Virus record (IMG/VR): IMGVR_UViG_3300017697_000030
Location: 1-42,456 of that record
Strand: one strand, 5' to 3'
DNA length: 42,456 nucleotides
DNA from: a virus
Part shown: one piece after another, positions 3,426-20,748 of the stretch
Numbering within the stretch: position 1 is the first letter of the stretch
Layout of the letters: every line of letters begins with the position of its first letter
Made by a program: the position numbers and the translations under genes
The notes under the pieces: generated by a model
The model's database searches: none
What the model saw: the letters and a program-made list of their open reading frames with translations, nothing else
Told to the model about the DNA's origin: nothing

Positions 3426-3700
3426 TCTTGTTCCCCGTGGAACACTATGAATAAAGGGGTGTGTTCCCCGGCGTAAGCTCCCTCGACGTTGAAGCACATG
3501 TGGTCTTCGGCGTCGGCCCAGCCCATCCCGTCCCTTATAAAGACTTCGACACAGGCGTCACGGTCGTAGACAGCGACGATGTTGTGCGATGGCCACGTGC
3601 TTGTCGTCCCCACCAGGGCATCGTCCAAACCGTCGCATAGCAGCGCCTCGGGTGAGTACTCTGCGAGGAACTCTCGTATGCGCTCAGAGCGAACCGTCAT
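3422..3700 (-). CDS. Conserved small phage protein of unknown function
   Basis: 92 residues with the pattern ALLCDGLDDALVG, IVAVYDRDACVEV and FNVEGAYAGEHTPLFI, which I recognise as a common phage family (lack of a known function is from memory). It sits between the zinc-ribbon gene and the helicase, overlapping both by 4 nt (ATGA upstream, GTGA downstream), so the three are probably translationally coupled. AGGA lies 7 nt before the ATG. No catalytic motif is evident. Confidence 0.8.
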   Translation of the reverse strand: MTVRSERIREFLAEYSPEALLCDGLDDALVGTTSTWPSHNIVAVYDRDACVEVFIRDGMGWADAEDHMCFNVEGAYAGEHTPLFIVFHGEQE

Positions 3701-3912: not shown

Positions 3913-3950
3913 GCCTCCTCCCCTCCCTCTACAGCAGGAAAGGAGGAGGC
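3913..3950 (-). terminator. Hairpin between nuclease and FmdB-like genes
   Basis: 14-bp stem with two G-T wobbles (GCCTCCTCC core against GGAGGAGGC) and a 10-nt loop. Read leftward it is followed by TCTTCCCC rather than a clean T tract, so it may be an attenuator or processing site rather than a strong terminator. Confidence 0.4.
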
Positions 3951-3968
3951 CGGGTTTCAGGTGGGCTA

Positions 3969-5603
3969 CTACCTGATGCCCTGAATCACGGAGTCTGCTG
4001 CTTGTACAAGCACAGTCTTACATGCCGCCCAGTAAGGGTTGTCGGAACTAACCAACACGTATCCCTTGAGGCTGCTGACCCGCAGAAGGCCAGCGACGTG
4101 ACTCTTACCTTCTCCGTATTGCATCTGGAGAGGTGTGGCCACCTTGTTGTTCTCGGCCACCTTAGCTACCAGCGGGTAGATGAGGTCCTCGAACGACACT
4201 GCGCCTTTGATTCCCTTTACGGGAAGGCAGTCGATGTAGACCGTGAGGCCTGCTGTCTGCTTAGCTGGCTCCTCCTCGAGGATGACAGGCTTGGGATCTG
4301 GAGCTTTCTCCTTCTTCTTCTCTTCCTTCTTCCTCTGAGCAATGATGTCCTCCGAGGGGCGGCTCTCGCCAGTCTCGTGGTTATACGAGCCTCTGTGGGT
4401 GGGGAGTGCTGACGCTCGAACAACGGAGCCATCCGAGTAGCTCAGCGTACCGTCGGAGAAACGACAGGCCTTCTCGACGTAGTAGAGACGGACACGTCGA
4501 AGGTCAAGCACCTTGCCTACGATGGTCTTCGCAGCAACCTTGCCTATGCGCTGGATGTTACGGTCTCGCATGTGGGCCAGCAGCGCCTTGGCTGCTTCGT
4601 CATATGCCACGGAAGAGAAGTTATCCTTCGAGGGAACGGGCTCTGTGAAGGCCTCTGTAGATGGGGCTGCCTCCACTACCTCGACGGCCTCCACTACCTC
4701 GACGGCCTCGACGGCCTCGACAGTGCGAGAGGCGGTGTCCTCGGACAAGACACCCGTGGGCACGGACGTCCCGTTCGTGGGAGCTGGTGCTGCGTTGTTC
4801 GCCTTCTTTCTATTCCTAAGTTCTTGGAGTCTGCTCATGTTCGTTTCCTTCCTTTCTTCCGGTTTCTTATTTCCGACTTCTGATATTCCTGCAAACGGGT
4901 TCATCTCTACAGCCCCCAGTGCAGCGCAGGTGTCTGCAAAAGGGCAGCCTCCGAAAGCTCCGCAGGCAGAGAGGGTCGGAGGAACCTCCTCTACCGAGTC
5001 CAGGTAGGACGTCTGCTTCATCTCAGTGGCTAAGGCTACGAGCTTAGCCCACTGTTCTTCTACGTGTTCCCGAGTCAACTCTACGGATACCAAGCGGCTC
5101 TCGGGAGCGCCCTTAGTCTTCAGCTGAATATGTGCAACGATTACCTCGTTAGCTTCTGTGTGCTGCTCTAACGCGTACTGAGCGTAGGCAATCATCTGGG
5201 GGTCTGTTCCCAGCTGCTCTTCCGTCTTTGCCCACTTCCATGCGGAGGTGGTCTTGTAGTCGACGACTACGGGGCAGCTGGGGTCCATCGTATCGTAGAG
5301 GTCTATGAACCCAACCAAGGGCGGGTCGATAGACTCCATGCGAAGCGAGAGCTCCACATGAAGGTCCGTAGATGTGGGGATGTACTCGATAGCCGTGCGA
5401 GCTATGCGGCCCTCACGTGTGTCAGGTATCTCCGTGCCCTTCGAGACATAGTCTTCGAGCAACTCGTGGACGGTAGAGCCCAGCAACATGGCCGCGGACG
5501 GCTCAGGTCGGGGGGCATCGGTGCACTTTTCGATGTACCACTTGCGTTTGCAGAGGCTGTACGTCTTAAACTGAGAGGCGCTGACGTGTTCTATAGTACT
5601 CAT
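3969..5603 (-). CDS. Cas4/RecB-like PD-(D/E)XK exonuclease with long C-terminal extension
   Basis: 544 residues. The N-terminal ~240 are a Cas4/RecB-type nuclease: SASQFKTYSLCKRKW with C18, LGSTVHELLE with H46, GFIDLYD with D101 and VVVDYKTTS with D115 and K117. C214, C220 and C226 can join C18 in a 4Fe-4S cluster as in Cas4/AddB enzymes. Residues 256-544 form a separate region beginning MSRLQELRNRKK, with a Val-Glu-Ala repeat (about 290-310) from tandem short DNA repeats, a Lys/Glu-rich linker and a final domain of unknown fold. Cas4-like nucleases make DNA ends for phage recombination or replication. A strong internal RBS at 4846 suggests the C-terminal part is also made alone. The start lacks a canonical SD and is preceded by GTACCCAC. 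Confidence 0.85.
   Translation of the reverse strand: MSTIEHVSASQFKTYSLCKRKWYIEKCTDAPRPEPSAAMLLGSTVHELLEDYVSKGTEIPDTREGRIARTAIEYIPTSTDLHVELSLRMESIDPPLVGFIDLYDTMDPSCPVVVDYKTTSAWKWAKTEEQLGTDPQMIAYAQYALEQHTEANEVIVAHIQLKTKGAPESRLVSVELTREHVEEQWAKLVALATEMKQTSYLDSVEEVPPTLSACGAFGGCPFADTCAALGAVEMNPFAGISEVGNKKPEERKETNMSRLQELRNRKKANNAAPAPTNGTSVPTGVLSEDTASRTVEAVEAVEVVEAVEVVEAAPSTEAFTEPVPSKDNFSSVAYDEAAKALLAHMRDRNIQRIGKVAAKTIVGKVLDLRRVRLYYVEKACRFSDGTLSYSDGSVVRASALPTHRGSYNHETGESRPSEDIIAQRKKEEKKKEKAPDPKPVILEEEPAKQTAGLTVYIDCLPVKGIKGAVSFEDLIYPLVAKVAENNKVATPLQMQYGEGKSHVAGLLRVSSLKGYVLVSSDNPYWAACKTVLVQAADSVIQGIR
4836..4853 (-). promoter_or_regulatory. Internal ribosome-binding site and ATG inside the nuclease gene
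   Basis: AGGAAGGA (4846-4853) lies 7 nt before an in-frame ATG (4836-4838) that encodes residue M256, exactly where the nuclease domain ends. It would yield a 289-residue C-terminal protein in the same frame. This SD is stronger than the one at the full-length start. Confidence 0.55.
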
Positions 5604-5612
5604 GTGGGTACT

Positions 5613-7817
5613 TTAATCTTCTGACATCCGCGCGTCAAGCCTAATAACCTTATCTAATGTGTCTATGTGCGCGCTTCCGCTCTCCGGGTCTTCGTAAGAG
5701 CGTCCCTCGGGCAGTGGTATTCCTGGCTTCACCCACTCCCTAATCCTAATGCCGTTTTTCTGTCGGCGGTTTAGGGGGGCTGCTCCGCACTGGACCAGCA
5801 ACCTACTCACCCGGTTAGTCGAGACCGTCAGGTTTCCGAGAGCCTTCGTACACGCATCGGAGATAGTGAAGATGTTGTCCCCCTTGCGCCCCAGCCAGTT
5901 GGCCAGGACGCTCAAGTAAGGGTCCTCGTTAGTGAACCTATCCTCCGCGATCTTTCGCTGTTCCGCTTCCATGGCTCGAGTCTGATGCCACTGCTCTCCT
6001 GCTCGGAAAGCCTCGACAGCCTCGGCCCATAGCTGCGAGCGGTTTCTCTTCAACCACTCAAGGTTTGTGTACTGGGTGACCTCGACAGGCCAGTACCGGC
6101 GTGAGCCCGACGGGTCTGTCAGAGGTCGGTCCTCGTTGGATGTAGCCACGATCACTGTGTGCCGCGGGAACTGCTGGACTGTCCGCTTATATGGCGGGCG
6201 ATACAGGTCAACCGGCGAGGAGATAAATCCCTTTACCTTCTCGGCGTAGGACTTCTTGAAGGACGCGAGCTCTGCGACTTCGTAGATCCAAGCACGAGCA
6301 AGGCCCATGAACGCGTCTTTGTTATTCAGGTTTAGCTCGGTGTCGTCGAACCACTCGGGGCCTGCCAGCTCCCTAAGGATAGTTGACTTGCCAAGACCCT
6401 GGCGTCCTATGAGCATGAGAACAGTGTCGACCTTACAGCCGGGGCGATAAGCACGAGCAACACAGGAGATGAGAAACTTGCGAGCGACGTCCCTGTAGTA
6501 GTCGGACTCCTCGCAGCCTATGCCTTTCTCCATCCAGGTGTCTGCTCTGTTGATGCCGTCCCACTGCAGGGAGTCAAGCCATTCTACGAGAGGATTGCGT
6601 TTATTCTCGCAACAGATAAGCTCGATAACATCGAACATCATCTGCCTGTTCGGCTCGAAGTTGTAGTGAGAGCCTATCCACTTACGAAGATCGAACGTGT
6701 CCTCGTCGCGATAGACACGGTCATCCCGCATGTTCACAAAGGAACGCTCGTTAAACCAGAAGCGACCCTGCCATCGAGTGTCGACTGTTAGGATGTGGTA
6801 CGTGTTGAACAGGTTGTTCCTGAAGTTACCGTCCCTGTTGGTTTGAAGAACACTGACGACAGCGGCCTGCTGCATCGGAGGAACGAACTCCCCGTCCCAA
6901 TAAGTGTGTCCGTCCTGCGCCGATGTGCACACAAGGTACGGCTGGCCGATGTCATTGCGCGAGACGAACGCGCTATCTGTGCTGCTGCCCTCATGGAAGG
7001 GGCACTGCAGTCGGACACGATGGCCGTCTTCTCCGAGCTCTGCGTCCACTAAATCACGCAGCGTCGTGTAGCCCTGCTCAGTCCAGTTATCGAGGAGGGC
7101 TACCTCCGAGAAGTTAGGGCGACGGGCGGGGCCTGCTGTGTTGATCCCCGCGAAGGGGCTGCTTTGATCCCAAGAAGACTCGGGGCCTGCTGACGAAGAG
7201 CCCGTGGCCCGGTCGAAGACAACAGCGGGGATGTCGTCGGGCACGCGGTAAAGAGGACCTCCGCTGTGCGTTACGCGAACCTCGACAGGCTGGCCCTTGT
7301 TATTAAAAGAACCAGGGGGCCTGAGCAGGCGTGTGCCTGCATCCGATGCGGACGTGTCTGCAAGAGCATAGCCAGCCGCGGTATTCACAGAGTGGATTAA
7401 CCACCGCGCAGCTAAGTTCATACGAGGGATGTCGCCGCCGCCACACTCCGTCCAGAAGTAGACGTGGTATCCGTAGCCGCTCATCACAACAACGGTAGGG
7501 GTGAGCTCCGCTCGCTCTAACATCTGGCTAAGCTCTTCCCAGTGCTCGGCGAGCAGGTCGTCTACCTCTTCTCGAGGAGACTCCGTCAGTATTCCTTTGA
7601 GCTCTCGAACACCCGGAGAGTCCGAGCCCAGCTGGTGGTGCAGGTAATCGACAGCGTCGAAGTCCATGGCAAGCACAGGGCAGCGGACTAAGTCGTCTTT
7701 CGTATGCGTAGGGGAACCGACGGGGAATAGACCCGTGGTTATATAGTCCTCCCCGTTGTGGGAACGGGAGGAGTACTCCGTCCCTTCGTCTGCGGGAGGG
7801 AGATGTGGGTACGACAT
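5613..7817 (-). CDS. Primase-helicase: Prim-Pol domain fused to VirE/D5-like ATPase
   Basis: 734 residues, the likely replication initiator and primase-helicase. The N-terminal half resembles an archaeo-eukaryotic Prim-Pol: MDFDAVD gives metal ligands D52 and D54, SGYGYHVYF (113-121) the conserved S..G.H strand, and GTRLLRPPGSFNNKG (161-175) a nucleotide-binding block. A possible zinc site follows (C272, H275, C297, H304). The C-terminal half is a VirE/SF3-type ATPase with Walker A GRQGLGKST (471-479), an acidic Walker B-like YEVAE and VIVATSNED followed by GSRRYWPVEV, the usual sensor/arginine segment. GAGG lies 7 nt before the ATG. It faces the origin-like region and is the first gene of the leftward block. 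Confidence 0.88.
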   Translation of the reverse strand: MSYPHLPPADEGTEYSSRSHNGEDYITTGLFPVGSPTHTKDDLVRCPVLAMDFDAVDYLHHQLGSDSPGVRELKGILTESPREEVDDLLAEHWEELSQMLERAELTPTVVVMSGYGYHVYFWTECGGGDIPRMNLAARWLIHSVNTAAGYALADTSASDAGTRLLRPPGSFNNKGQPVEVRVTHSGGPLYRVPDDIPAVVFDRATGSSSAGPESSWDQSSPFAGINTAGPARRPNFSEVALLDNWTEQGYTTLRDLVDAELGEDGHRVRLQCPFHEGSSTDSAFVSRNDIGQPYLVCTSAQDGHTYWDGEFVPPMQQAAVVSVLQTNRDGNFRNNLFNTYHILTVDTRWQGRFWFNERSFVNMRDDRVYRDEDTFDLRKWIGSHYNFEPNRQMMFDVIELICCENKRNPLVEWLDSLQWDGINRADTWMEKGIGCEESDYYRDVARKFLISCVARAYRPGCKVDTVLMLIGRQGLGKSTILRELAGPEWFDDTELNLNNKDAFMGLARAWIYEVAELASFKKSYAEKVKGFISSPVDLYRPPYKRTVQQFPRHTVIVATSNEDRPLTDPSGSRRYWPVEVTQYTNLEWLKRNRSQLWAEAVEAFRAGEQWHQTRAMEAEQRKIAEDRFTNEDPYLSVLANWLGRKGDNIFTISDACTKALGNLTVSTNRVSRLLVQCGAAPLNRRQKNGIRIREWVKPGIPLPEGRSYEDPESGSAHIDTLDKVIRLDARMSED

Positions 7818-8014: not shown

Positions 8015-8030
8015 ACACTAAATGTAGTGC
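8015..8030. promoter_or_regulatory. NrdR-box-like palindrome
   Basis: ACACTAAATGTAGTGC agrees at 13 of 16 positions with the published NrdR box acaCwAtATaTwGwgt. It lies about 200 bp upstream of the primase-helicase start and is one of at least five related sites in the window. Confidence 0.55.
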
Positions 8031-8336
8031 TTACCCTGGGGTACCCATGTGGTTATGGATAACTCGGCAGTAGGGCCCTCCTATATGCATACAAGCCAGA
8101 GCAGTGCAGCGATTAGAGCAGAGACCAAGAAGACACAGGCGCTCTTCGAGAAGAACAGAGGAAACACAGGGTACCTCACATCTTCTTTACAAGATTCAGA
8201 GCGACGTCTTTACAAGTCAAGAAAGATTAGTGAAAAACCAGGAGAATAAGAAAATCACTAAAAAATAAGAGCCCAAAGGTTTGTTGCTGAACAGCACGAT
8301 AAACACTAAAATCTATTGTATCGTCAACAGCAAATC

Positions 8337-8345
8337 TGTGGAAAA
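8337..8345 (-). promoter_or_regulatory. DnaA-box-like 9-mer
   Basis: TTTTCCACA read leftward fits the DnaA box TTWTNCACA. A weaker variant, TTATCCATA, is at 8054-8062. Chance matches to a 9-mer are common; the value lies in its position beside the repeat cluster. A partial NrdR-like site (CCCTACATGTGT, 8346-8357) directly abuts it. Confidence 0.4.
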
Positions 8346-8372
8346 CCCTACATGTGTATCAGATGTACGAAT

Positions 8373-8403
8373 CTGCCCAGCACTTTTTTTCTGTGCCGGG
8401 CAG
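8373..8403. repeat. Inverted repeat with T-rich loop
   Basis: CTGCCCAGCAC and GTGCCGGGCAG (one mismatch) flank a 9-nt T-rich loop. The arms belong to the CTGCCC(A/G)G family that fills 8373-8762. Read rightward, no T tract follows the second arm, so it is not a classical terminator. Confidence 0.5.
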
Positions 8404-8526
8404 CGACATTCCAGGTTTAAGCCCAGCTATGAAAGGCGCTGCCCATTACTGAACAGGTGTTCATTTGGCCCTGCCGGGCAGCGATATGATAGGTTTAAGC
8501 CCGGATGTGAGACTCTCTGCCCGGGC
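8395..8526. repeat. Two ~50-bp imperfect direct repeats
   Basis: Copy A starts at 8395 and copy B at 8473. Each begins GCCGGGCAGCGA, has AGGTTTAAGCCC about 9-10 bp on and ends in CTGCCC, so each can also form a hairpin through GGGCAGCG/CGCTGCCC-type arms. A looser third copy is at 8640-8698. Iteron-like protein-binding sites are the likeliest reading. Confidence 0.6.
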
Positions 8527-8657
8527 TGCCCAGCACTTTTCAACCAACAATCTATACTGACCGGAGTATTTAAATAGAGCAGAGCAGCTAATAGTTTATT
8601 TTATTTACTCCCGCCATATACTATAGACGAACGCTTTGTGCCGGGCAGCCCGGGCAG
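8517..8657. repeat. 20-bp inverted repeat flanking a 101-bp AT-rich core
   Basis: The left arm CTGCCCGGGCTGCCCAGCAC (8517-8536) and right arm (8638-8657) are inverted copies with a single mismatch. The interior (8537-8637) is visibly AT-rich, with runs such as GTTTATTTTATTTA, amid GC-rich surroundings. The shape suggests an unwinding element bracketed by initiator sites, but a small mobile remnant cannot be excluded. Confidence 0.65.
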
Positions 8658-8771
8658 CGGCTCGAAACACGTAGGTGCAAGCTGGGTTTTCGCTGCCCAG
8701 CAGAGCAGTAAAGCGTTTAGCTTATTAACCTGGTTCTACCTGGGCATCCACTGCCCGGGCACATTCTTTCC

Positions 8772-8800
8772 TTGACAGGATACCCTACATGTAGTACCTT
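8772..8800 (+). promoter_or_regulatory. Promoter with palindromic operator in its spacer
   Basis: Perfect -35 TTGACA (8772-8777), 17-bp spacer, -10-like TACCTT (8795-8800). The spacer holds the palindrome CTACATGTAG (8785-8794), part of the NrdR-box-like element, so a bound protein would block RNA polymerase. It should drive the zinc-ribbon/DUF927 operon starting at 8853. Confidence 0.65.
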
Positions 8801-8852
8801 CTACCCATGAGCACAATCAAAGCCTTCTTCCTCCCACAAGAGAGGTCCGACC

Positions 8853-9095
8853 ATGTACTGTCCTAAGTGCAACACCAACACACGGGTCCTCTCCTCCCGC
8901 CGACACGATCACCCGCGCGGATGCTTAGCCGCCCGGCTCGCCAGGGAAGCCGCGTCCTGGTTCACGATGGACTGGGTATCTCGGGAGCGTAAGTGCAAGA
9001 ACCCCGAGTGCGACTGGCGCGGAGCCACGATCGAGCTCCTCACGGAAGACCTGACCGCCGGCTGGCGGGCACGATACGCACGCCGGAACAAATGA
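8853..9095 (+). CDS. Small zinc-ribbon regulator, Ogr/Delta- or NrdR-like
   Basis: 80 residues beginning MYCPKCNTNTRVLSSRR, with a second knuckle CKNPEC (C48, C53) followed by DWRGATIEL. The Cx2C...Cx4C layout and the SR after the first knuckle match the Ogr/Delta phage activators (CPxC, xRxSR, CQNxNC). The same region also resembles the N-terminal zinc ribbon of NrdR, but there is no ATP-cone domain. It is therefore probably a DNA-binding transcription regulator. GAGAGG lies 7 nt before the ATG, and the gene overlaps the DUF927 gene as ATGA. Its own promoter carries a palindromic operator, so autoregulation is plausible. Confidence 0.65.
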   Translation: MYCPKCNTNTRVLSSRRHDHPRGCLAARLAREAASWFTMDWVSRERKCKNPECDWRGATIELLTEDLTAGWRARYARRNK

Positions 9096-10564
9096 GCGAG
9101 CTGCTCCCCTACCCGCCGGACATGTCCGCACTACCGGAGGCTAAGCACTGGGGCTGGACCGATGACCGCTGCCTCCAGTACCTGCACCCCGACGGCTACC
9201 TCACCGCTACCGGACTACCTCTCGAGTACCGACCACCCTCCCCGGGCCCCCGGAACACGACCGTTAAACACGCCGGCGGCGAGTACAACCGCTCCACCCA
9301 GGCGGGCACATGGGAGGGCTGGTTAGAGGCGGCGCACGTGGCGGCGGATTACCCGCATGCTTACAGCGCTCTCTACACGTCGATCGCCTCGCTCCTCCTG
9401 CCCATACTCGAAGTCGACAACTTCGGGATGGAGCTCTGTTCCATGACGAGCACGGGCAAGACCACTGCCCTTCACTTAGCGATGTCCGCCTGGGGAGACT
9501 ACTACGACCTATACTCCTGCTGGGGCGACGGAGCGAGCCACCTCTACAAAGAGAGCTGCCAGGGCAGCGTACCCCGGACTCGCGACGAGGCTCAGCTCGC
9601 AACAACCAAGTCTCTCAAGAACTGGGTCTACAGCGTATCCGCTGGCCGGTTCGGCTCTTCGCGTTGGCGCAGCACCTTCTTCTCCGCGGGCGAGACCCCT
9701 GCCGGAGACCGGACCAAGATGCCCGGTATCTACGCTCGGGTAGTTTCCCTACGCGGTCCGCCCTTCGGGCACGACACAGCCCGCGGCGGCGAGGCAGCGG
9801 AAGAGGTGAATCAGATCTGCCGTTACCACTACGGGCACTTGTCCGTTCGGATGGCAAGCTACATGGTCGAGTACCACGACCGTCTATACCCAGCGCTAAA
9901 GGCCGCTTTCATCGGACGGTTTAACGAGCTGGTGCAGCGGCAATCCTCGGGCGCTTTCCGGCGGCACGCCCGCTACCTCGCGGCGATCCACGTGGCCGGT
10001 GACCTGGCTCACTCCCTCGGGCTACCGAGACCGCGGAGCTCCCTGTCCCCGCCGGACCTCCTGTACCGCAGCGCTGTGGACTGCTCGGGATGCGCCGACC
10101 TCCCCCGCAGGGCATTCGTACACATGTGCTTGTTCCTTAGAAGCAGGCAGGAGAACTTCCTCCAGCAGACCGTCGAGGGCTACACATCCCACACAGCGCT
10201 GCGCTTCGATTACCCGACGGAAGATCTTGCTGGTATCTGGGACTACGACAACCCATCCTGGCAGAGACTCTCCGTACTCCGCGGGTTTCTACACAGGAAC
10301 AAGGCTTCCCTGTACACATGGCAGGCGCGATACACAGACACCTGGGAAGCTCGGGGCTACATCATCTCGGGCACGGCCCGCCACCTGAAGGCCGCAAAGA
10401 AGCTGCACCTCGCTAATCAGAATAGGAGGCAGCACACCTTCGCGGTTACACGGTCGCCGGTGCTGAACCTCTCGGGATTCCACGTGCAACGGGAGGAATA
10501 CGAGCGAGCGTTAGAGGAGGCTCCCACCACCCACCCCGTCCTTTCAGCGCAGTACCCGAGCTGA
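9092..10564 (+). CDS. DUF927-type ATPase (putative helicase)
   Basis: 490 residues. GTWEGWLEA and FGMELCSMTSTGKTTALHLA, with Walker A around G122-K123-T124-T125, then MSAWGD, reproduce the DUF927 core. RDEAQ (164-168) may supply the acidic Walker B residues, and GETPAGDRTKMPGIYARVV a later ATPase segment. DUF927 proteins are plasmid- and phage-associated helicase-like ATPases. The ATG at 9092 overlaps the upstream stop. Codon use looks more GC-rich at third positions than in the leftward replication genes, which could mean separate acquisition. It lies across the candidate origin from the primase-helicase, so the phage carries two replication-type ATPases in divergent orientation. Confidence 0.8.
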   Translation: MSELLPYPPDMSALPEAKHWGWTDDRCLQYLHPDGYLTATGLPLEYRPPSPGPRNTTVKHAGGEYNRSTQAGTWEGWLEAAHVAADYPHAYSALYTSIASLLLPILEVDNFGMELCSMTSTGKTTALHLAMSAWGDYYDLYSCWGDGASHLYKESCQGSVPRTRDEAQLATTKSLKNWVYSVSAGRFGSSRWRSTFFSAGETPAGDRTKMPGIYARVVSLRGPPFGHDTARGGEAAEEVNQICRYHYGHLSVRMASYMVEYHDRLYPALKAAFIGRFNELVQRQSSGAFRRHARYLAAIHVAGDLAHSLGLPRPRSSLSPPDLLYRSAVDCSGCADLPRRAFVHMCLFLRSRQENFLQQTVEGYTSHTALRFDYPTEDLAGIWDYDNPSWQRLSVLRGFLHRNKASLYTWQARYTDTWEARGYIISGTARHLKAAKKLHLANQNRRQHTFAVTRSPVLNLSGFHVQREEYERALEEAPTTHPVLSAQYPS

Positions 10565-10565
10565 C

Positions 10566-10660
10566 GTCCCTCGGGCGGAAGGAGGGACCCGATACAATGA
10601 CGCGGTTACCCCACCGGGCCCCGCGCACACGCTTTGCGCTAATGAGCGGAAGTAACCGCG
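10566..10660. terminator. Convergent inverted repeats, possible bidirectional terminator
   Basis: Between two convergent genes. GTCCCTC/GAGGGAC (10566-10588) forms a 7-bp hairpin. CGCGGTTAC (10601-10609) and GTAACCGCG (10652-10660) form a perfect 9-bp outer arm, and GCGC arms lie inside. No strong T tract follows, so termination is inferred from position and symmetry. Confidence 0.45.
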
Positions 10661-10674
10661 AACACAGTAACAGC

Positions 10675-11259
10675 TTATAGAACCGGGGTCGCCCAGCACG
10701 GCGGGTTCTTCTTCCCAAGTCTGATCACATGCGCTCGATCTAAGTGCACCCAGCTGTCCGAGATCTCCACGTGCTTGCGACCCAGCCTCACCGGGGCATC
10801 GACCTTCTTGGCAAGCCAACCCACCTCGGGCCACTTGTCCTGCACAGCCACCTCGGGCTTGTACCAGGCAGATGGTTTCTCGGGTAAGGCGAGCGTCACC
10901 ACGGGATGGTCACGGGGAACCAGCCTCTTCATAAGAGCCATACGCTCGAAGAGAGGGAGCTCACTCACCACGTCATGCACCACGATGTGGCCTGCTCGAT
11001 CCCTTCTCCGGGTACCCATCACCAGCGTCCCAAGCAGCAGCTCGCCCTCGAAGTTCATCGGAGCCTCGCGGAACCAGACGGGGTTGAACTTAATCGACCT
11101 TCTCAGTCCGTCGTATACCGTGCACCTCCCTACGATAACCGGTCTTCTCATACCCTCGGATGGAACCCACGGCTGCAACACCCACCCCTCGGGCAGTGAC
11201 CACGCTTCGGCCTTCTTATCGGGAGGACAGGGCAACGGGATATATCCTGCGCTCGTCAT
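10675..11259 (-). CDS. Hypothetical protein, faint nucleotidyltransferase/ligase resemblance
   Basis: 194 residues, not firmly recognised. The stretch NFEGELLLGT followed by IVVHDVVSELPLFERMALMKRL recalls the GEL and later strands of ATP-dependent ligases and capping enzymes. The adenylated lysine motif KxDG is missing (CTVYDGLRR sits where it might be), so an active ligase is unlikely; it may be a degenerate or divergent relative. GGAG precedes the ATG, which overlaps the next upstream gene as ATGA. It is the last gene of a leftward operon running from about 13759. Confidence 0.6.
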   Translation of the reverse strand: MTSAGYIPLPCPPDKKAEAWSLPEGWVLQPWVPSEGMRRPVIVGRCTVYDGLRRSIKFNPVWFREAPMNFEGELLLGTLVMGTRRRDRAGHIVVHDVVSELPLFERMALMKRLVPRDHPVVTLALPEKPSAWYKPEVAVQDKWPEVGWLAKKVDAPVRLGRKHVEISDSWVHLDRAHVIRLGKKNPPCWATPVL

Positions 11260-11534
11260 GCTTGAGCTCCCCCCTCTACACCGGGCAACGTGGCAAGCAC
11301 CGTAGCGTTGTAGATGTCCTCGAGAGCGGCCTCGAAGAACTCCAGAGCTTGCTCGCCCGTCAGCCCCGCGGCGTAGGCTCCCGCCCCTGCGATCACCATC
11401 GTCTCGTACATGAAGTCTAAGCAGTCTTCTCTCGATTCCGACATGCCGTACTTCATCAGGGTTTCTAACATCGCGTGTCTAATCTCCCGCGCTGTCTCTG
11501 ACTGCCCGGGCTCCCAGCTTTTCTTCTTACCCAT
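11256..11534 (-). CDS. Hypothetical protein
   Basis: 92 residues, mostly helical by pattern (EIRHAMLETLMKYG, ALEFFEAALEDIYNATVLATL), with an Ala/Gly-rich centre. No family recognised. It is coupled to both neighbours: its stop overlaps the next start as ATGA, and its start lies inside the last codons of the zinc-ribbon gene upstream. AGGTGGTG precedes the ATG. Confidence 0.65.
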   Translation of the reverse strand: MGKKKSWEPGQSETAREIRHAMLETLMKYGMSESREDCLDFMYETMVIAGAGAYAAGLTGEQALEFFEAALEDIYNATVLATLPGVEGGAQA

Positions 11535-11739
11535 GATTCACCACCTTCTTGTGTTGTTCGTCGGGATACACGCGGAGCTTCACGAAGCAGTGCTCCTCGC
11601 AGTTGTGGCACCATTGCGTCTCTGCGCTGCTGCCTGAGCCATACCAGTCGTCTGACTCACCTGTGTTCGGGTTAACCCACATGGCAACTTGGATGTCTTC
11701 GCTGCCGCACTCTACACACATGTATACTTCTCTCGCCAT
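11527..11739 (-). CDS. Small zinc-ribbon protein
   Basis: 70 residues (MAREVYMCVECGS...). Two CxxC pairs (CVEC near the N-terminus and CHNC in the middle) indicate a zinc ribbon that may bind nucleic acid or protein; no family assigned. The start overlaps the previous stop as TGATG and is preceded by AGGAGGTGAGTG, one of several nearly identical start cassettes in this operon. Confidence 0.7.
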   Translation of the reverse strand: MAREVYMCVECGSEDIQVAMWVNPNTGESDDWYGSGSSAETQWCHNCEEHCFVKLRVYPDEQHKKVVNHG

Positions 11740-12206
11740 CACTCACCTCCTACGAGGACAAGCCTGTTGCGGGGGACACCGGTCTTCAGACCCTTGGCCA
11801 TGCGGGCTGCGTACACAGCCTCTCGGACCGTGGGAATCTCCTCCTCGGTTAGCCAGACCTCACGGACCTTCGCTTCTGTGGAGCCCAGCCCCAAGAGCTT
11901 GGCCTGACGAACGTAGTCTGCGCCCCCGTACCGGTACTCCTTCCGGTCGGCGTATATCGCGCCGTCCCGGTATCTGTATCTCCGGGTCTTGATGTTGGAC
12001 CCGGTGTCCGGTCCAGTCTTCAGCTCGGATTCCTCGTTGGGGCAGGGCTCCTTCACCCTACGCACGAGGGCCATCTCGTGGACCTCTATGTCCGGGTATC
12101 CAGCCAGGGATTCTAAAAGCTCCTCTGCATCCCAAGTATTGGGGTCTCCCTCGCTGGAGTCGATGACTATGATTCCGCTGATGTTTATCTGATATACCTT
12201 TTGCAT
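11739..12206 (-). CDS. Hypothetical protein
   Basis: 155 residues, starting MQKVYQINISGIIVIDSSEG. The ATG at 12206 is preferred because GGAAG precedes it by 6 nt; the longer frame to 12263 lacks an SD. A beta-rich first half is followed by a basic Tyr/Arg segment (TRRYRYRDGAIYADRKEYRYGG) and a C-terminal region with WLTEEEIPTVREAVYAARMAKG. No known domain recognised. It precedes the zinc-ribbon gene with a TGATG overlap. Confidence 0.65.
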   Translation of the reverse strand: MQKVYQINISGIIVIDSSEGDPNTWDAEELLESLAGYPDIEVHEMALVRRVKEPCPNEESELKTGPDTGSNIKTRRYRYRDGAIYADRKEYRYGGADYVRQAKLLGLGSTEAKVREVWLTEEEIPTVREAVYAARMAKGLKTGVPRNRLVLVGGE

Positions 12207-12250
12207 TTCTATCTTCCTTCGTTCAAGTTCAGGGTTTCTAACAGGACTTC

Positions 12251-12568
12251 TCACTTGTCCCATTGCTTCAAGTGCTCGACTACTTCGTCCAGCGTGACGC
12301 GCACACCATGTGCGCTGTTAAGTTTTCGGTTGAGTCCAGACAGGTCATCAATCCACATCCTCACTCGCCGGGACTCTGGCTCGTCGACGGGCTCCTTGGG
12401 CTCGGCCAGGACATCCTCGACCCGACTCAGGACTTGACTGAGCACCTCCAGCTTGCCTTCCAAACTGTTTGCTCGTCTCTCTTCCTCGGACCCGTCCTCT
12501 GATTCCAGGAGCTCTAATCTAATCTGGTCTTCTATTTGCGCGAACGCATCCCACATAGCGTCAATCAT
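12251..12568 (-). CDS. Hypothetical acidic helical protein
   Basis: 105 residues rich in Glu and Leu with heptad-like spacing (EGKLEVLSQVLSRVEDVL), suggesting a short coiled coil. No family recognised. GGAGGTGAGCG precedes the ATG, which overlaps the upstream stop as ATGA. Confidence 0.65.
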   Translation of the reverse strand: MIDAMWDAFAQIEDQIRLELLESEDGSEEERRANSLEGKLEVLSQVLSRVEDVLAEPKEPVDEPESRRVRMWIDDLSGLNRKLNSAHGVRVTLDEVVEHLKQWDK

Positions 12569-12780
12569 CGCTCACCTCCCTTGTCGATTAAGCGCTGCGC
12601 TCGGTTGAGCCTTTCGACGACCCACTCGTCGCCGTCGTTGACCAGCTCCCAGACCATCGTGTCTATGTCTCCGTACTCGGTCAGGTCCAGCAGGTCCTTC
12701 ACGGATTCTCTCAGCTCATCGCGCTCATCCTTCAAAGCGTTCCACTTCCAAACAGGTATCTCAATAGTAGGCACACCCAT
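12565..12780 (-). CDS. Hypothetical protein
   Basis: 71 residues (MGVPTIEIPVWKWNALKDERDELRESVKDLLDL...), charged and probably helical. The ATG at 12780 overlaps the stop of the upstream 42-residue gene as TGATG and follows GGAGGTGAG; a GTG one codon earlier is less likely. Confidence 0.65.
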   Translation of the reverse strand: MGVPTIEIPVWKWNALKDERDELRESVKDLLDLTEYGDIDTMVWELVNDGDEWVVERLNRAQRLIDKGGER

Positions 12781-12908
12781 CACTCACCTCCCTTGACTTG
12801 TCCGCGACAAGCCTTCTTGTTCTTCTGCTTCTTCTTGTCGGGCATCGCGCCCGCCTTCCGATTGTGTGCGTGAACCGCAATCCAGTTTCGCTTCTTAAGC
12901 TTGGCCAT
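12780..12908 (-). CDS. Small basic conserved phage protein (42 residues)
   Basis: A short gene with the sequence pattern KLKKRNWIAVHAHNRKAGAM followed by DKKKQKNKKACRG. The N-W-I-A-V-H-A-H motif and trailing DKKK...NK.AC are familiar from small basic phage proteins of unknown function. Its charge suggests nucleic-acid binding, which is inference only. The start follows GAGGAGGTGAGC and overlaps the tail of the upstream gene by 14 nt; the stop overlaps the next start. Confidence 0.7.
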   Translation of the reverse strand: MAKLKKRNWIAVHAHNRKAGAMPDKKKQKNKKACRGQVKGGE

Positions 12909-13038
12909 TGCTCACCTCCTCATCCGAGAACTCCCTGTCCACGACTGCTTGAATCTCCCAGGACTCATCGACGAATCCCTTGTCTGCTAACTTGGAGAGG
13001 AGCTTTGAAATCTCCTCAATGATCTGTTCGGTTGTCAC
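12895..13038 (-). CDS. Hypothetical small acidic protein (47 residues)
   Basis: Starts at a GTG that overlaps the preceding stop as GTGA and follows GGAGG by 6 nt. The product begins MTTEQIIEEISKLLSKLADKG and is acidic with one amphipathic helix. Its stop lies inside the following gene. No family recognised; the tight overlaps on both sides support it as real. Confidence 0.6.
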   Translation of the reverse strand: MTTEQIIEEISKLLSKLADKGFVDESWEIQAVVDREFSDEEVSNGQA

Positions 13039-13385
13039 GCGACACCTCCGTTGACTCTGTCGATTACCACTTGAGCTCTTTTGCTCGGTTGCTTTGTGAG
13101 GAACCCCCTTGCTCTCCCTGCCCCGTAGGGCACGGGTCGGTCGAACTGGTCTGCTGTCGGGTCGAGCACCTCACCCTCCGCAGTCTGAATCCACCAGTGA
13201 ACGCAGTCTCCCATGTTCACGGACATCGGCTTCAGGCCAGCCGACTTCCCACCCATCATGTGGTACAGCGCTTCGCTTGCAACGTAGCAGTGACCAGTCA
13301 TCGGGTGGGCTCCCGCCTCGACCTGCTTCCTGAAGACGGGCTTCAGCAAGCTCGGGTCGAGTACCTGTCTAATCTCGTTAATCAT
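13035..13385 (-). CDS. Conserved phage protein with transglutaminase/papain-like triad pattern
   Basis: 116 residues. GHCYVASEALYH (C33), CVHWWIQ (H63) and GEVLDPTADQF (D75) follow the Cys...HW...D order of small transglutaminase- or papain-like thiol enzymes, then YGAGRARGFLTKQPSKRAQ. I recall similar phage proteins annotated only as hypothetical. The catalytic assignment is inferred; substrate unknown. AAGGTGCAGC precedes the ATG, which overlaps the upstream stop as ATGA. Confidence 0.65.
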   Translation of the reverse strand: MINEIRQVLDPSLLKPVFRKQVEAGAHPMTGHCYVASEALYHMMGGKSAGLKPMSVNMGDCVHWWIQTAEGEVLDPTADQFDRPVPYGAGRARGFLTKQPSKRAQVVIDRVNGGVA

Positions 13386-13759
13386 GCTGCACCTTCCTTC
13401 GACAGGCGCATCGCATCTGCGATGATTCCCTGCATTTGAGACACTGCCTGTCTGAAGTGGTTCTTTCGGATCATTAGGAGGGGGTCAATCATTCCGGGTG
13501 TCTCTGCGAGCGCATCCACGGCAGGTAGGACGTGGTGTTGCAGCAGAGCCGACAGAAGCGCGTGGGCCTCGCGAGGATACAGCTCTTCGATGTCCTCCTC
13601 TTTGATCTCGACCGTGTGCTGCTCCTCATCGAACTCGACTGTGACGTCCGAGCTTACGTCGACGGTCTCGTCGCCGATGCTAATCTCGCCGGTGACTTCG
13701 ATGGTCCTCTCGTCGGGCTGGATGTGCTTGTAAACAGTAAATAGTGTGGTTGCTGACAT
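13382..13759 (-). CDS. Hypothetical protein, first gene of leftward operon
   Basis: 125 residues. The N-terminal half has regular alternating strands (RTIEVTGEISIGDETVDVSSDVTVEF) and the C-terminal half is helical. No family recognised. The start is preceded by CGGAGTCAGCC, a variant of the CGGAGTCAAYC leader found before other operon-leading genes here. It is transcribed from the divergent region at 13760-13979. Confidence 0.65.
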   Translation of the reverse strand: MSATTLFTVYKHIQPDERTIEVTGEISIGDETVDVSSDVTVEFDEEQHTVEIKEEDIEELYPREAHALLSALLQHHVLPAVDALAETPGMIDPLLMIRKNHFRQAVSQMQGIIADAMRLSKEGAA

Positions 13760-13787
13760 CTGGCTGACTCCGCTGAGCTAAATAAAT

Positions 13788-13811
13788 ATTATAACTATTA
13801 TAAGTATTATA
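13788..13811 (-). promoter_or_regulatory. Three perfect TATAAT boxes at 9-bp period
   Basis: Read leftward, TATAAT occurs at 13806-13811, 13797-13802 and 13788-13793, each followed by a 3-bp spacer, 30-55 bp upstream of the 13759 start. Besides offering -10 boxes, the array would melt easily. Confidence 0.5.
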
Positions 13812-13859
13812 ACTATTTCGATTACTCTGGTGAGAAGGGGTGATTCCCGACTCACTCAT

Positions 13860-13887
13860 AGTGTAACAGGTCCTACATGTAGTGCAA
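13860..13887 (-). promoter_or_regulatory. Promoter with NrdR-box-like spacer for the 13759 operon
   Basis: Leftward TTGCAC (13882-13887), 16-bp spacer, TACACT (13860-13865). The spacer contains CTACATGTAG. The -35 and palindrome are shared with the promoters at 15843-15871 and 16142-16170. Confidence 0.6.
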
Positions 13888-13964
13888 GTATTATTTTATA
13901 TTCGCAGTACTGCGCTCTATTTGACAACATTTATTTAGAGAGACGTGCATGCGCGTCGATACTG

Positions 13965-13973
13965 TGATATGAT
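13965..13973 (+). promoter_or_regulatory. Extended -10 promoter directly before the 13980 start
   Basis: TG-A-TATGAT (13965-13973). A start site 6-8 nt downstream would fall on or next to the ATG at 13980, giving a leaderless mRNA; no SD is present. Confidence 0.5.
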
Positions 13974-13979
13974 CTATGT

Positions 13980-14468
13980 ATGACCGAAGAACAGACAGCG
14001 CTGAGCCCCGAGACCCCCGGTATCGAGGAAGTTCTGCGCATGTTGCGCGCAGATGCGATGTTTGCGGCGACCCCCGAACTACGGGCGATCTGTTGTCGCC
14101 TGTTATCTGCGGGCTACACTCCCCGAGACACCGCTTTAAAGCTTAAAATACCGGAGAGCGTTATCTGGGGCTGGCGCGGCGAGGACGATATCAAGCAGGC
14201 GATTAACGACGGGAAAGAGCATCGTCGTAAGGTGCTCTCATCCCAGCTCGAAGGCGCCGCGATGGATGCGCTCGACGCTCTCCGCGGTGTGCTCGCCGAC
14301 CCGGACGTCCCGGCCCGGGATAAGATCAAGGCAGCGGAGGGGATCCTCGACCGCTGCGGGATTGCGCCGGCTACCAAGGCCGGAGCCGACCAACCAACCG
14401 GACCTGTGATAATCGATGTTGACTTCGATGAGCGCCTGGCCCGGATCGTAGCCACGGGACAGACCTGA
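13980..14468 (+). CDS. HTH DNA-binding protein, small-terminase-like
   Basis: 162 residues. CRLLSAGYTPRDTALKLKI followed by PESVIWGWRGEDDI is a helix-turn-helix of the type found in small terminase subunits, followed by a helical region (LEGAAMDALDALRGVLADPDVPARDKIKAAEGILDRCGI) that also occurs in those proteins. A small terminase would recognise the packaging site, but the gene is 14 kb from the large subunit, so a regulatory role is possible. It has no SD and sits at the expected transcription start of an extended -10 promoter, suggesting leaderless translation. Confidence 0.65.
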   Translation: MTEEQTALSPETPGIEEVLRMLRADAMFAATPELRAICCRLLSAGYTPRDTALKLKIPESVIWGWRGEDDIKQAINDGKEHRRKVLSSQLEGAAMDALDALRGVLADPDVPARDKIKAAEGILDRCGIAPATKAGADQPTGPVIIDVDFDERLARIVATGQT

Positions 14469-14785
14469 TGCACTGCAAAGACCCGCTCGCCCTCGCCCGG
14501 ATGTCTGCCGGAGCGCCGGACTTCTCCGGTCCCGGATTCTCTGAAGCTCGTAAGATTATTCTAATCGCGCCGGACATTTCCCCGGACATCCCGCAGGCGC
14601 CGGACACCGGACATGCCGGATCTAACGAGCATCATCAGGAGCTGCTTAAGATTGCCGACCAGCTCGACGACGCCTCCGAGAAACACGCGGGCCAAGCTAA
14701 ACGGATTCGTGAGCTTTGCGCTAAGATGATGGGCAAAGAAGAGGCCCCGCCCGATAGTACGGGCGAGGCCATGGAGCTCGAGTAG
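14468..14785 (+). CDS. Hypothetical protein
   Basis: 105 residues. It starts in a TGATG overlap with the HTH gene and lacks a clear SD, so it is probably translated by coupling. The first half is Pro/Ala/Asp-rich and is encoded partly by repeated CCGGACA words, including one exact CCGGACACCGGA (14600-14611). The second half is a charged helix (HHQELLKIADQLDDASEKHAGQAKRIRELCAKMMG). No family recognised. Confidence 0.5.
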   Translation: MHCKDPLALARMSAGAPDFSGPGFSEARKIILIAPDISPDIPQAPDTGHAGSNEHHQELLKIADQLDDASEKHAGQAKRIRELCAKMMGKEEAPPDSTGEAMELE

Positions 14786-14792
14786 GGCAGGG

Positions 14793-14870
14793 CTACAGCC
14801 CTAAGAAGAACCAGAGCCCCAGCGCGAAGCAGACGAAGCAGGCGAGGAGCTCGACGTTAGCGGCGCTCAT
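14793..14870 (-). CDS. Membrane micropeptide (25 residues), paralogue of 18839-18913
   Basis: Encodes MSAANVELLACFVCF... ending GLWFFLGL: one hydrophobic segment spanning nearly the whole peptide. A second micropeptide at 18839-18913 shares the pattern EL...FVCFA.GL(W/Y)FFL.L, which supports both as real genes. GAAGG lies 8 nt before the ATG. It is convergent with the 14785 gene and last in the short leftward group 15800-14793. It probably inserts in the cytoplasmic membrane; function unknown. Confidence 0.6.
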   Translation of the reverse strand: MSAANVELLACFVCFALGLWFFLGL

Positions 14871-14994
14871 CTTCGCGCCCTTCGTCGGGTACGTTCCCAG
14901 TATGCAAGCCGCTTAGTATATTTAAAGTAGAACATGAGACCTCCGGGTAGTTTTGAATCTTGCCCAGGATATGTGGTGTAGGGTTATTGCTTGG

Positions 14995-15141
14995 CTATCC
15001 CATATCGAGGATGGAATAGCGACCGTCCAAGCCTCGGTCAATAATCCAGCTAAGAGTGCTGATACCCTTGGCTTCCGCACGCTCGATGAATGCGACGGCC
15101 TCGGCCTCGGTATAGAAGATGTCGATAGTTTTCCAGTTCAT
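14995..15141 (-). CDS. Hypothetical protein (48 residues)
   Basis: Begins MNWKTIDIFYTEAEAVAFIERAEAKG and continues as a mixed alpha/beta pattern; no family recognised. GAGGAGTAACT precedes the ATG. It follows the GP88-like gene after 14 nt. A longer frame to 15246 overlaps that gene and has no SD. Confidence 0.65.
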   Translation of the reverse strand: MNWKTIDIFYTEAEAVAFIERAEAKGISTLSWIIDRGLDGRYSILDMG

Positions 15142-15155
15142 AGTTACTCCTCGGT

Positions 15156-15800
15156 TTATTGTCTGTGATAGTCGATGTTCTCTACCGTCGGGTCCCAGCA
15201 GGCACGACAAGGGCCGCACTTGTTCCCGCGGGTACTGGCCTCGCACTCGAAGCCTTGTCCTGACTCCACTGTGGACGTCAGGTGACCTTCGAAGCTCTTA
15301 GGAGGCGTCTGGCCTACCATCGGAGCGGACAAGCGAACCACGAGGTTCTCAGGCCATGTCTCGCCAAGCTCAGCGCGCACAGCTTTAACCATGCGACTCT
15401 CTTTCGTGGGCATCCAGCACCGAACCCAAGGAGCGAGCCTCGCCACAGCTACCCACATGAGCAGGTGCTCTCTCGACTGGAGGTCTCCGCTATCGTGGAT
15501 GCGGAAGTAGGGGTCCGCTTCCTTCGTGTAGTGGCTGACCAGGCGGGCCATGGCCTCTACCCAGCGCGGATGTCCGAGCGCTTGAAAGCGAGACTCGAGC
15601 CCGTTCCTGACGTCAGGGTAAAGATAGTTACCACGGAACGCGTAACATTTAGCGCATACCGAGCCCGCTATTTTAGCCAGCTTGGCTCCTGTCTTGCAGT
15701 GCTCAGCAGGTATAGCGGTTGAATAACCGGGCATCTTAGAAGGTTTTCCTAAGCCTGACTTATGCCCGATAATATCTTTAGCTTCTTTAAGGGTTAACAT
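15156..15800 (-). CDS. GP88-family phage protein
   Basis: 214 residues with the pattern I associate with the phage Gene Product 88 family: KMPGYSTAIPAEHCKTGAKL, IAGSVCAKCYAFRGNYLYPD, PYFRIHDSGDLQS and GNKCGPCRACWD. The conserved cysteines suggest metal or Fe-S binding, but the biochemical role is unknown. The start follows CGGAGTCAATCA. It is driven by the NrdR-box-like promoter at 15843-15871. Confidence 0.85.
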   Translation of the reverse strand: MLTLKEAKDIIGHKSGLGKPSKMPGYSTAIPAEHCKTGAKLAKIAGSVCAKCYAFRGNYLYPDVRNGLESRFQALGHPRWVEAMARLVSHYTKEADPYFRIHDSGDLQSREHLLMWVAVARLAPWVRCWMPTKESRMVKAVRAELGETWPENLVVRLSAPMVGQTPPKSFEGHLTSTVESGQGFECEASTRGNKCGPCRACWDPTVENIDYHRQ

Positions 15801-15842
15801 TGATTGACTCCGTTAATCGTCGAGAGGATACCCGACCTATTT

Positions 15843-15871
15843 AAAATAACAGAACCCTACATATAGTGCAA
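15843..15871 (-). promoter_or_regulatory. NrdR-box-like promoter for the GP88 operon
   Basis: Leftward TTGCAC (15866-15871), 17-bp spacer, TATTTT (15843-15848). Overlapping it, GCACTATATGTAGGGT matches the NrdR box at 13 of 16 positions and is identical to the element at 16144-16159. Confidence 0.65.
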
Positions 15872-15957
15872 GCTCTAATGATATTAAAATAAACCAGCGG
15901 CTCTCTGCCCGTGTTATCTTTTCCCTTGCGCCGGCCTCCGCTCTGCTATAGGCTATG

Positions 15958-16047
15958 GCCTGAGTGATTGACTCCGCTCAACCGGCCCGGTGCTCAACCG
16001 GGTTAGCTCCGGTGCAGTCTCCCCGATTGCACCGGAGCTTTTATTTT
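15958..16047 (+). ncRNA. Candidate small RNA antisense to the shared RBS leader
   Basis: A locus of about 90 nt. Upstream is an extended -10 (TG-C-TATAGG, 15944-15952) with TTGCGC 15 bp before it. The 5' stem TGAG/CTCA (15961-15980) presents a 12-nt loop, TGATTGACTCCG, the exact antisense of CGGAGTCAATCA at the GP88 start. It also pairs over 9-11 nt with the ribosome-binding sites at 16223, 17726, 18762, 19601 and 13759. A CCCGG/CCGGG hairpin and a strong terminator follow. Alternative: the opposite strand is a decayed gene leader (CGGAGTCAATC without a gene). Transcription is not shown. Confidence 0.45.
16006..16047 (+). terminator. Strong intrinsic terminator
   Basis: Perfect 11-bp stem GCTCCGGTGCA/TGCACCGGAGC (16006-16016, 16028-16038), 11-nt loop, then TTTTATTTT. 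No protein gene lies upstream on this strand, so it must end a non-coding transcript or block read-through. Confidence 0.85.
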
Positions 16048-16141
16048 ACCGGACACCGGAGACTCCTCTTTAAAGAGCGACCGCTGACCGCTGACCGCTT
16101 GTCAATAAATGTAACTATTTTATTTTAGTGTATTTTATTTA

Positions 16142-16170
16142 TTGCACTATATGTAGGGTTGTGTTACTGT
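16142..16170 (+). promoter_or_regulatory. NrdR-box-like promoter for the 16223 operon
   Basis: TTGCAC (16142-16147), 17-bp spacer, TACTGT (16165-16170). GCACTATATGTAGGGT (16144-16159) overlaps the -35 and spacer. Confidence 0.65.
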
Positions 16171-20028: not shown

Positions 20029-20113
20029 GTTGACGTTTTGTCAACAAGGGGACCCTAAGCTGTTTATAAAAAATATCGAAAATACATTTTTAAGAACGCT
20101 TGACAGATTGTCA
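20029..20113. promoter_or_regulatory. Two TTGAC/GTCAA palindromes before the 20161 gene
   Basis: GTTGAC-N5-GTCAAC (20029-20045) and TGACA-GAT-TGTCA (20101-20113). Each includes a TTGAC -35-like half. Their place upstream of a gene with a ribbon-helix-helix-like N-terminus suggests operators. Confidence 0.45.
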
Positions 20114-20160
20114 GCCTGCCCTATGTGTAGGTGTGTTATGCTCCTTGTCGGAGGGTGCGT

Positions 20161-20748
20161 ATGAGCGGTAAGACAAAACCGGCCGATAAGCTGACTTTCG
20201 TGAAGGGAGACCCTGTAGCGGTGTCTGTCGAGCTGGACGATTTACTACTCGAACAGCTTGACGGTGTTGTGGCTCTGATGCGCAGCTGGCCTGCTGTTCG
20301 AGAGCTAGGTGTCGTGGTCACGCGCGAGACGGCTGCGCGTGTCGCCCTCACCCGCGGTCTTGCTTCTATGCAGGGCTCGACTGCGGTGAAGAACCCGACC
20401 AAGGCGCACAGCGCTCCGCAACCCGAGGCTCCCGAAGAGCCTGAGGAGCCTACTGGCGGGTTGGACTGCGAGTACGACGAGGACGGCTTTATCGTTCCTC
20501 CCGACGGATGGGAGCTCTCGCCCAACACGGAGCGCGTTCCCGCGGTCCATGTTCCTGCTCACGCGTACTACACGAGCCACGGCTGGGACCGCTACTGGGG
20601 CAAGAGCGGCCCCGAGGTCATGTACTTTTACTGGTCTAAGGACCCTGCCCTCCACGGGCTATCTGCCGCTGCCGGCATCCAGGTACAAGACACACCCTGG
20701 GGTCCCGGCCACTTTATCCCCCACAACTATGTACCCCCGGAGAACTGA
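20161..20748 (+). CDS. Ribbon-helix-helix-like protein with C-terminal domain of unknown function
   Basis: 195 residues. VAVSVELDDLLLEQLDGVVALM followed by RETAARVALTRGLASM resembles a strand-helix-helix (RHH) DNA-binding unit. A Pro/Glu linker follows (PEAPEEPEEPTGG), then an aromatic C-terminal half (YYTSHGWDRYWGKSGPEVMYFYW) not recognised. The ATG at 20161 is preceded by GGAGG at 6 nt; the longer frame from 20131 lacks one. Overlaps the next gene as TGATG. Confidence 0.6.
   Translation: MSGKTKPADKLTFVKGDPVAVSVELDDLLLEQLDGVVALMRSWPAVRELGVVVTRETAARVALTRGLASMQGSTAVKNPTKAHSAPQPEAPEEPEEPTGGLDCEYDEDGFIVPPDGWELSPNTERVPAVHVPAHAYYTSHGWDRYWGKSGPEVMYFYWSKDPALHGLSAAAGIQVQDTPWGPGHFIPHNYVPPEN

Follow-up and report, generated by a model that had tools for sequence, protein, structure and literature searches.

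NrdR, the regulator of ribonucleotide reductase genes, has been described as needing an ATP-cone domain. It also requires a pair of helically phased boxes separated by 14-17 or 24-27 base pairs, a single box being reported as not bound (PMC12051234). In Streptomyces coelicolor NrdR, R12, R26-29 and R37 are backbone contacts and D15 and R17 are base-reading residues, two GC pairs of the box are needed, a D15A substitution results in tighter and less selective binding, and the NrdR ribbons kink their box sharply (PMC9110341). In this work, we analyzed a set of palindromes with the core of the NrdR box, together with a small zinc-ribbon gene (8853-9095), in the IMG/VR viral record IMGVR_UViG_3300017697_000030 of an uncultivated phage; the window, that is, the whole stretch of DNA analyzed, comprises 42,456 bases. 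The palindromes are probably operators of some regulator, and we regard as evenly balanced the proposal that the 8853 zinc ribbon is the protein that binds them and represses early promoters. No description of a phage-encoded NrdR-type regulator was found in the literature searched.

The window contains five exact copies of the core CTAnATnTAG (at 8018, 8785, 13873, 15857 and 16147), each of them in intergenic DNA, which accounts for 13.5% of the window according to our own gene calls. This is far above chance, as 0.063 intergenic copies would be expected (Poisson P ~8e-9, a generous value since the core was defined after the sites had been seen). Two further tests are independent of this post hoc choice: CTAnATnTAG ranks first among 256 comparable two-fold cores, with five intergenic copies against at most two for any other, and the published 16-base NrdR consensus, allowing up to three mismatches, is matched at four palindromic places, one of them (13732) within a gene, against 0.34 matches expected by shuffling (both strands counted). 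Agreement with this consensus reaches 13 of 16 positions at 8015, 15854 and 16144, 11 at 8782, 10 at 13870 and 9 at 20118, and all the strongly conserved bases of the NrdR box (C.A.AT.T.G) are present in the CTAnATnTAG core, each of the five exact sites being a palindrome with the conserved core of NrdR sites. Relaxing the search to CTAYATRTAG with at most one mismatch yields nine matches in the window against 1.93 expected; those at 2604, 16260 and 28913 are coding sequence and, except for the last, no copy lies in the late half of the window. An earlier note, made from the letters alone, had listed the same five elements and the three sites with 13 matching positions and had noticed no copy in the late half, and our re-scoring reproduced all three observations. 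It had also listed two weaker copies: the one at 20121 is credible and intergenic, whereas 8346 (CTACATGTGT) was rejected because its 16-mer agrees with the consensus at only 4 of 16 positions and does not form such a palindrome.

The sites and the two genes most directly concerned are the following, the strand of the 8015 site having been assigned from the downstream operon:

8015-8030, minus strand: palindrome ACACTAAATGTAGTGC, upstream of the minus-strand replication operon.
8772-8800, plus strand: promoter TTGACA-N17-TACCTT; palindrome CTACATGTAG (8785-8794) fills the downstream part of the spacer and abuts the -10.
8853-9095, plus strand: gene of an 80-residue NrdR-type zinc-ribbon protein, the proposed regulator, recognized by profile, PDB-profile and fold searches.
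9093-10564, plus strand: DUF927 primase/helicase-like gene, 3' of the zinc-ribbon gene as in relatives (the listed open reading frame opens at 8993; the gene start was taken near 9093).
13860-13887, minus strand: promoter TTGCAC-N16-TACACT with TGT before the -10; palindrome CTACATGTAG (13873-13882).
15843-15871, minus strand: promoter TTGCAC-N17-TATTTT with TGT before the -10; palindrome CTATATGTAG (15857-15866).
16142-16170, plus strand: promoter TTGCAC-N17-TACTGT with TGT before the -10; palindrome CTATATGTAG (16147-16156).
20121-20130, plus strand: weak intergenic copy CTATGTGTAG, upstream of TGT-TATGCT.

Judged by their position, the sites appear to precede most transcription units of the early region on both strands. 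The 8015 site lies in front of the replication operon encoding a VapE-like protein (5613-7817), a PDDEXK nuclease (3969-5603) and a helicase (1794-3497); the promoter at 8772 would drive the zinc-ribbon and DUF927 genes, that at 13860 the minus-strand genes from 13759 to 10675, that at 15843 the GP88-family gene (15156-15800) and that at 16142 the genes from 16223 onward, and the 20121 element would be the promoter of a possible ribbon-helix-helix gene (20161-20748). The arrangement TTGCAC-palindrome-TGTTAnnnT is common to three promoters (13870 and 15854 on the minus strand, 16144 on the plus strand), and the TTGCAC that the earlier note ascribed to several sites is found at exactly these three. 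As TTGCAC agrees with the -35 consensus TTGACA at 3 of 6 positions and is thus a weak -35, the three are most readily taken as promoters of the extended -10 type. The notion of a family of phage promoters therefore holds insofar as the palindromes are non-random, promoter-linked and carry the NrdR-box core, but the promoter at 8015 is unproven. Two other features were observed next to these promoters: a possible short leader reading frame (8809-8867), which starts near the transcription start expected for the 8782 site and overlaps the start of the zinc-ribbon gene, and a strong hairpin followed by a T-rich tract (16005-16039) between two outward-facing promoters with boxes.

The product of the zinc-ribbon gene, whose own promoter contains one of the boxes, is predicted to have the NrdR-type zinc-ribbon fold. 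On its own it matches the Pfam family Zn_ribbon_NrdR weakly (E=3.5e-4, under the cut-off), but all of its aligned homologs match that family (10/10), and the top five matches of a profile of these homologs against PDB sequences are all NrdR (E 0.006-0.0095). Furthermore, when the AlphaFold2 model (predicted local distance difference test score, 77) was compared with the PDB using Foldseek, the ten best matches were all NrdR, with probabilities of 0.96-1.00 against at most 0.38 for the next. The E-values of these matches were only ~0.01-0.2 and the template modelling score was ~0.45 by query length, which is accounted for by an insert carried by the phage protein. The zinc-ribbon cysteine pairs of the NrdR family are present as CPKC and CKNPEC in the 8853 protein and as two CXXC in the homologs. 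In a residue mapping made by hand and guided by the PDB-profile alignment (NrdR numbering from PMC9110341), the S. coelicolor contacts R12, R17 and R37 align with R11, R16 and R56, two arginines of the RRRR stretch (26-29; 2 of 4 positions) align with R44 and R46, and D15 is replaced by Ser. The two GC pairs needed by S. coelicolor NrdR keep their 9-base spacing in the phage core. These results support the option, also raised in the earlier note, that the phage's own zinc-ribbon protein acts at the sites, as a candidate binder with several of the contact residues. At L085:10001-10207, a separate phage protein of 69 residues was noted; its ribbon is almost canonical for NrdR (RVIDSR...RRRRRC), and the L085 record contains no ATP-cone.

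The distribution of boxes and ribbons among relatives is consistent with binding of the box by the ribbon. No near relative was found in the phage collection, for which the first 25 kilobases (kb) of the window were searched. In viral contigs, probes with the VapE protein or with the 8853 protein alone retrieved no relatives, but a two-row alignment did. The close relative G002 (17 kb) keeps all four of the sites covered by its contig, including the promoters at 13860-13887 and 15843-15871 and the weak copy at 20121; its copy of the 16144 core reads CTACATGTAG and is perfectly palindromic. In the more distant G004 (70 kb; terminase 77% and portal 72% identical) the ribbon is 51% identical and lies upstream of a DUF927 homolog. 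The ribbons of G004, G005, G006, G007 and G009 are 51-53% identical to the 8853 protein, and each of these five records contains CTAnATnTAG exactly once. In the four that were aligned (L079, L081, L083 and L084, corresponding to G005, G007, G009 and G004), the box is located within the spacer of a TTGACC-N17-TATTAT promoter of an ATPase-ribbon-DUF927 operon, and in G006 it lies at the corresponding distance upstream of the ribbon operon. Where the ribbon differs, the box is missing: in the L082 ribbon, R11 is replaced by V and R56 by S, and the homologous promoter of L082 lacks the box; the ribbons of L098 and L103 lack R11 and R56 and the box is absent; and L104-L118 have VVDSR-type ribbons without R56 and operon promoters without the box, mostly with a GYGGTA element after the -35. 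A box in the ribbon operon promoter thus appears, from these alignments, to go with one form of the ribbon.

Several other motifs turned up in these comparisons. The ribbon-operon promoters of L104-L118 (about 3920-4000) share TTGACnnNGYGGTA, possibly another operator family, and TTGACGCAGYGGTA occurs in G027 at a pair of promoters (62393 and 53768, both on the minus strand). The gap between ribbon and DUF927 genes in L098, L102, L104 and L108 contains a conserved hairpin-like TTTAGG/TTTGGG ... CGTCCG ... CGGGCGG, possibly a structured RNA or terminator. Some candidates were rejected. Beyond G002, matches to the full promoter pattern in the viral collection were single, and those in L005 and L063 lay in apparent coding sequence, so they were taken as chance; box-like sites at ~9.0-12.0 kb in L106, L107, L108, L112 and L116 belong to conserved coding sequence (...PLHLV... 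in our frame reading); and matches to the NrdR consensus in G013-G015 were no commoner than in a reversed control.

Taken together, these observations lead us to infer that the stand-alone ribbon binds the palindromes, probably as one dimer per single box, and that it would repress early promoters of both strands, its own included, by covering the stretch between -35 and -10 and bending it. The distance between the palindrome centre and the -10 varies from about 5.5 to 13.5 nucleotides, which favors a blocking repressor over a position-strict activator. Without an ATP-cone the ribbon would not sense nucleotides; its level would instead be set by its own negative feedback, expected because its gene lies behind one box, and the outcome would be an early-gene brake or shut-off. 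This is more likely than a lysogeny switch, which is not indicated because no integrase or serine recombinase was found in the record (which may be incomplete). It is tempting to speculate, although we hold this with somewhat less than even confidence, that in this phage family the DNA-binding half of NrdR became an independent repressor, blind to nucleotides, which acts on single boxes and governs early expression, with a regulon that grew from one autoregulated operon, as in the G004 group, to about six promoters in this phage. If true, the use of single boxes by a viral ribbon would reveal the part of NrdR that is sufficient for recognition, would provide a nucleotide-independent comparison for NrdR studies and would extend the known means of phage transcription control by a small regulator.

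Several points weigh against repression by the ribbon. The Pfam score of the 8853 protein (20.9 bits) is below the cut-off for Zn_ribbon_NrdR (27.2), the insert of ~24 residues is absent from NrdR, and the protein is 80 residues long, with no ATP-cone anywhere in the phage record. Around 8015 there is no convincing pair of -35 and -10 hexamers. Regarding conservation, G002 is ~98% identical around the sites, which makes their retention weak evidence of selection, and its contig ends before the ribbon gene. Besides, the VVDSR signature of L104-L118 is more NrdR-like, and yet their operon promoter lacks the box, and the box-bearing members may share one ancestor, in which case the co-occurrence is not independent evidence.

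Other binders have to be considered. One is another phage protein, either an undetected repressor or the product of 20161-20748, whose N-terminus is ribbon-helix-helix-like. The weak copy at 20121 lies in the promoter of this gene, which is also present in G002, G003 and G004, and the model of its product displays a strand-helix-helix order, at a confidence too low for a fold search; but it has neither a Pfam match nor a meaningful PDB match, no other copy in the set is as weak as its own, and its homologs in G003 and G004 have no CTAnATnTAG near the gene and TTGAC/GTCAA repeats instead, so we consider such a binder unlikely. In the window, TTGAC-N5-GTCAA-type inverted repeats were also observed upstream of this gene (20030-20044 and 20101-20115), and G003 and G004 contain many TTGTCAA/TGTCAAG copies at the corresponding place and upstream of GP88.

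Alternatively, the phage might carry host operators, bound by a regulator of the host that is not NrdR, such as a repressor of the TetR or GntR type; many such regulators bind palindromes of 14-16 bases in promoter spacers. This is improbable, as it does not account for a box that accompanies the zinc-ribbon operon in the window as well as in the G004 group, and the full promoter pattern, searched in bacterial genomes, had 13 single matches, which were taken as chance from their scatter over unrelated organisms. It could also be argued that the sites derive from a duplicated promoter cassette, in which the palindrome hitch-hikes or forms part of RNA polymerase recognition, given that three promoters are alike beyond the palindrome (TTGCAC and TGTTA). 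We give little credence to this possibility, since the 8782 and 8015 sites share only the palindrome with those three, in another register, and the palindrome of the G004 group sits in an otherwise different promoter. Finally, the earlier note had suggested that early transcription of the phage may be tied to the deoxynucleotide state of its host through host NrdR, which would repress the early promoters in response to deoxyadenosine triphosphate; even with a core that retains every strongly conserved base and three sites at 13 of 16, this is very improbable because each box is single (at every offset of 30-33 and 40-43 bases from a site a partner was scored, and the best reached 9-12, below the 95th percentile of 13 for random window positions), neither an ATP-cone nor a ribonucleotide reductase large subunit was found in the phage record, and the putative targets are replication and accessory genes.

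Elsewhere in the window, a non-coding region was noted between the two oppositely oriented replication operons, with the 8015 and 8782 palindromes on either side:

8373-8722, no strand assigned: repeat region, putatively origin-like, with two 51-nucleotide direct repeats (TGCCGGGCAGCGAYAT..AGGTTTAAGCCC) and CTGCCCGGGCAG inverted repeats.

Searches of the window for tRNAs and Rfam families gave no match.

Small phage-borne regulators and repeated operators are known from other systems. The stoperators of cluster A mycobacteriophages are asymmetric sites bound by the helix-turn-helix repressor of temperate phages; as with the palindromes described here, a single phage genome contains many dispersed copies of one short site, but the present site is palindromic and the searches for an integrase or a resolvase in the phage record found neither. 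The Ogr/Delta zinc-finger activators of P2/P4-type phages act on late promoters from upstream sites (about -55). Like them, the 8853 protein is a small stand-alone phage zinc protein, with CX2C...CX4C spacing in the window's copy; unlike them, its homologs have CX2C...CX2C, the sites lie in the spacers of early-region promoters and not upstream of a late-promoter -35, and NrdR scores better in every search (assignment to Ogr_Delta was rejected at 14.6 bits, with a cut-off of 26.3). Compared with NrdR, the phage protein has no ATP-cone, a ~24-residue insert and Ser for D15, and its putative boxes are single instead of paired and lie near genes for replication and accessory functions, not near those for ribonucleotide reductase; because the ATP-cone and the paired boxes were both looked for and are absent, it falls outside the definition of the NrdR family. 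Notwithstanding, it shares with NrdR and its boxes the zinc-ribbon domain, most of the contact arginines, the core bases and a site overlapping the promoter (PMC9110341, PMC12051234, PMC12176259), and the 8853 system probably works like a stripped-down NrdR.

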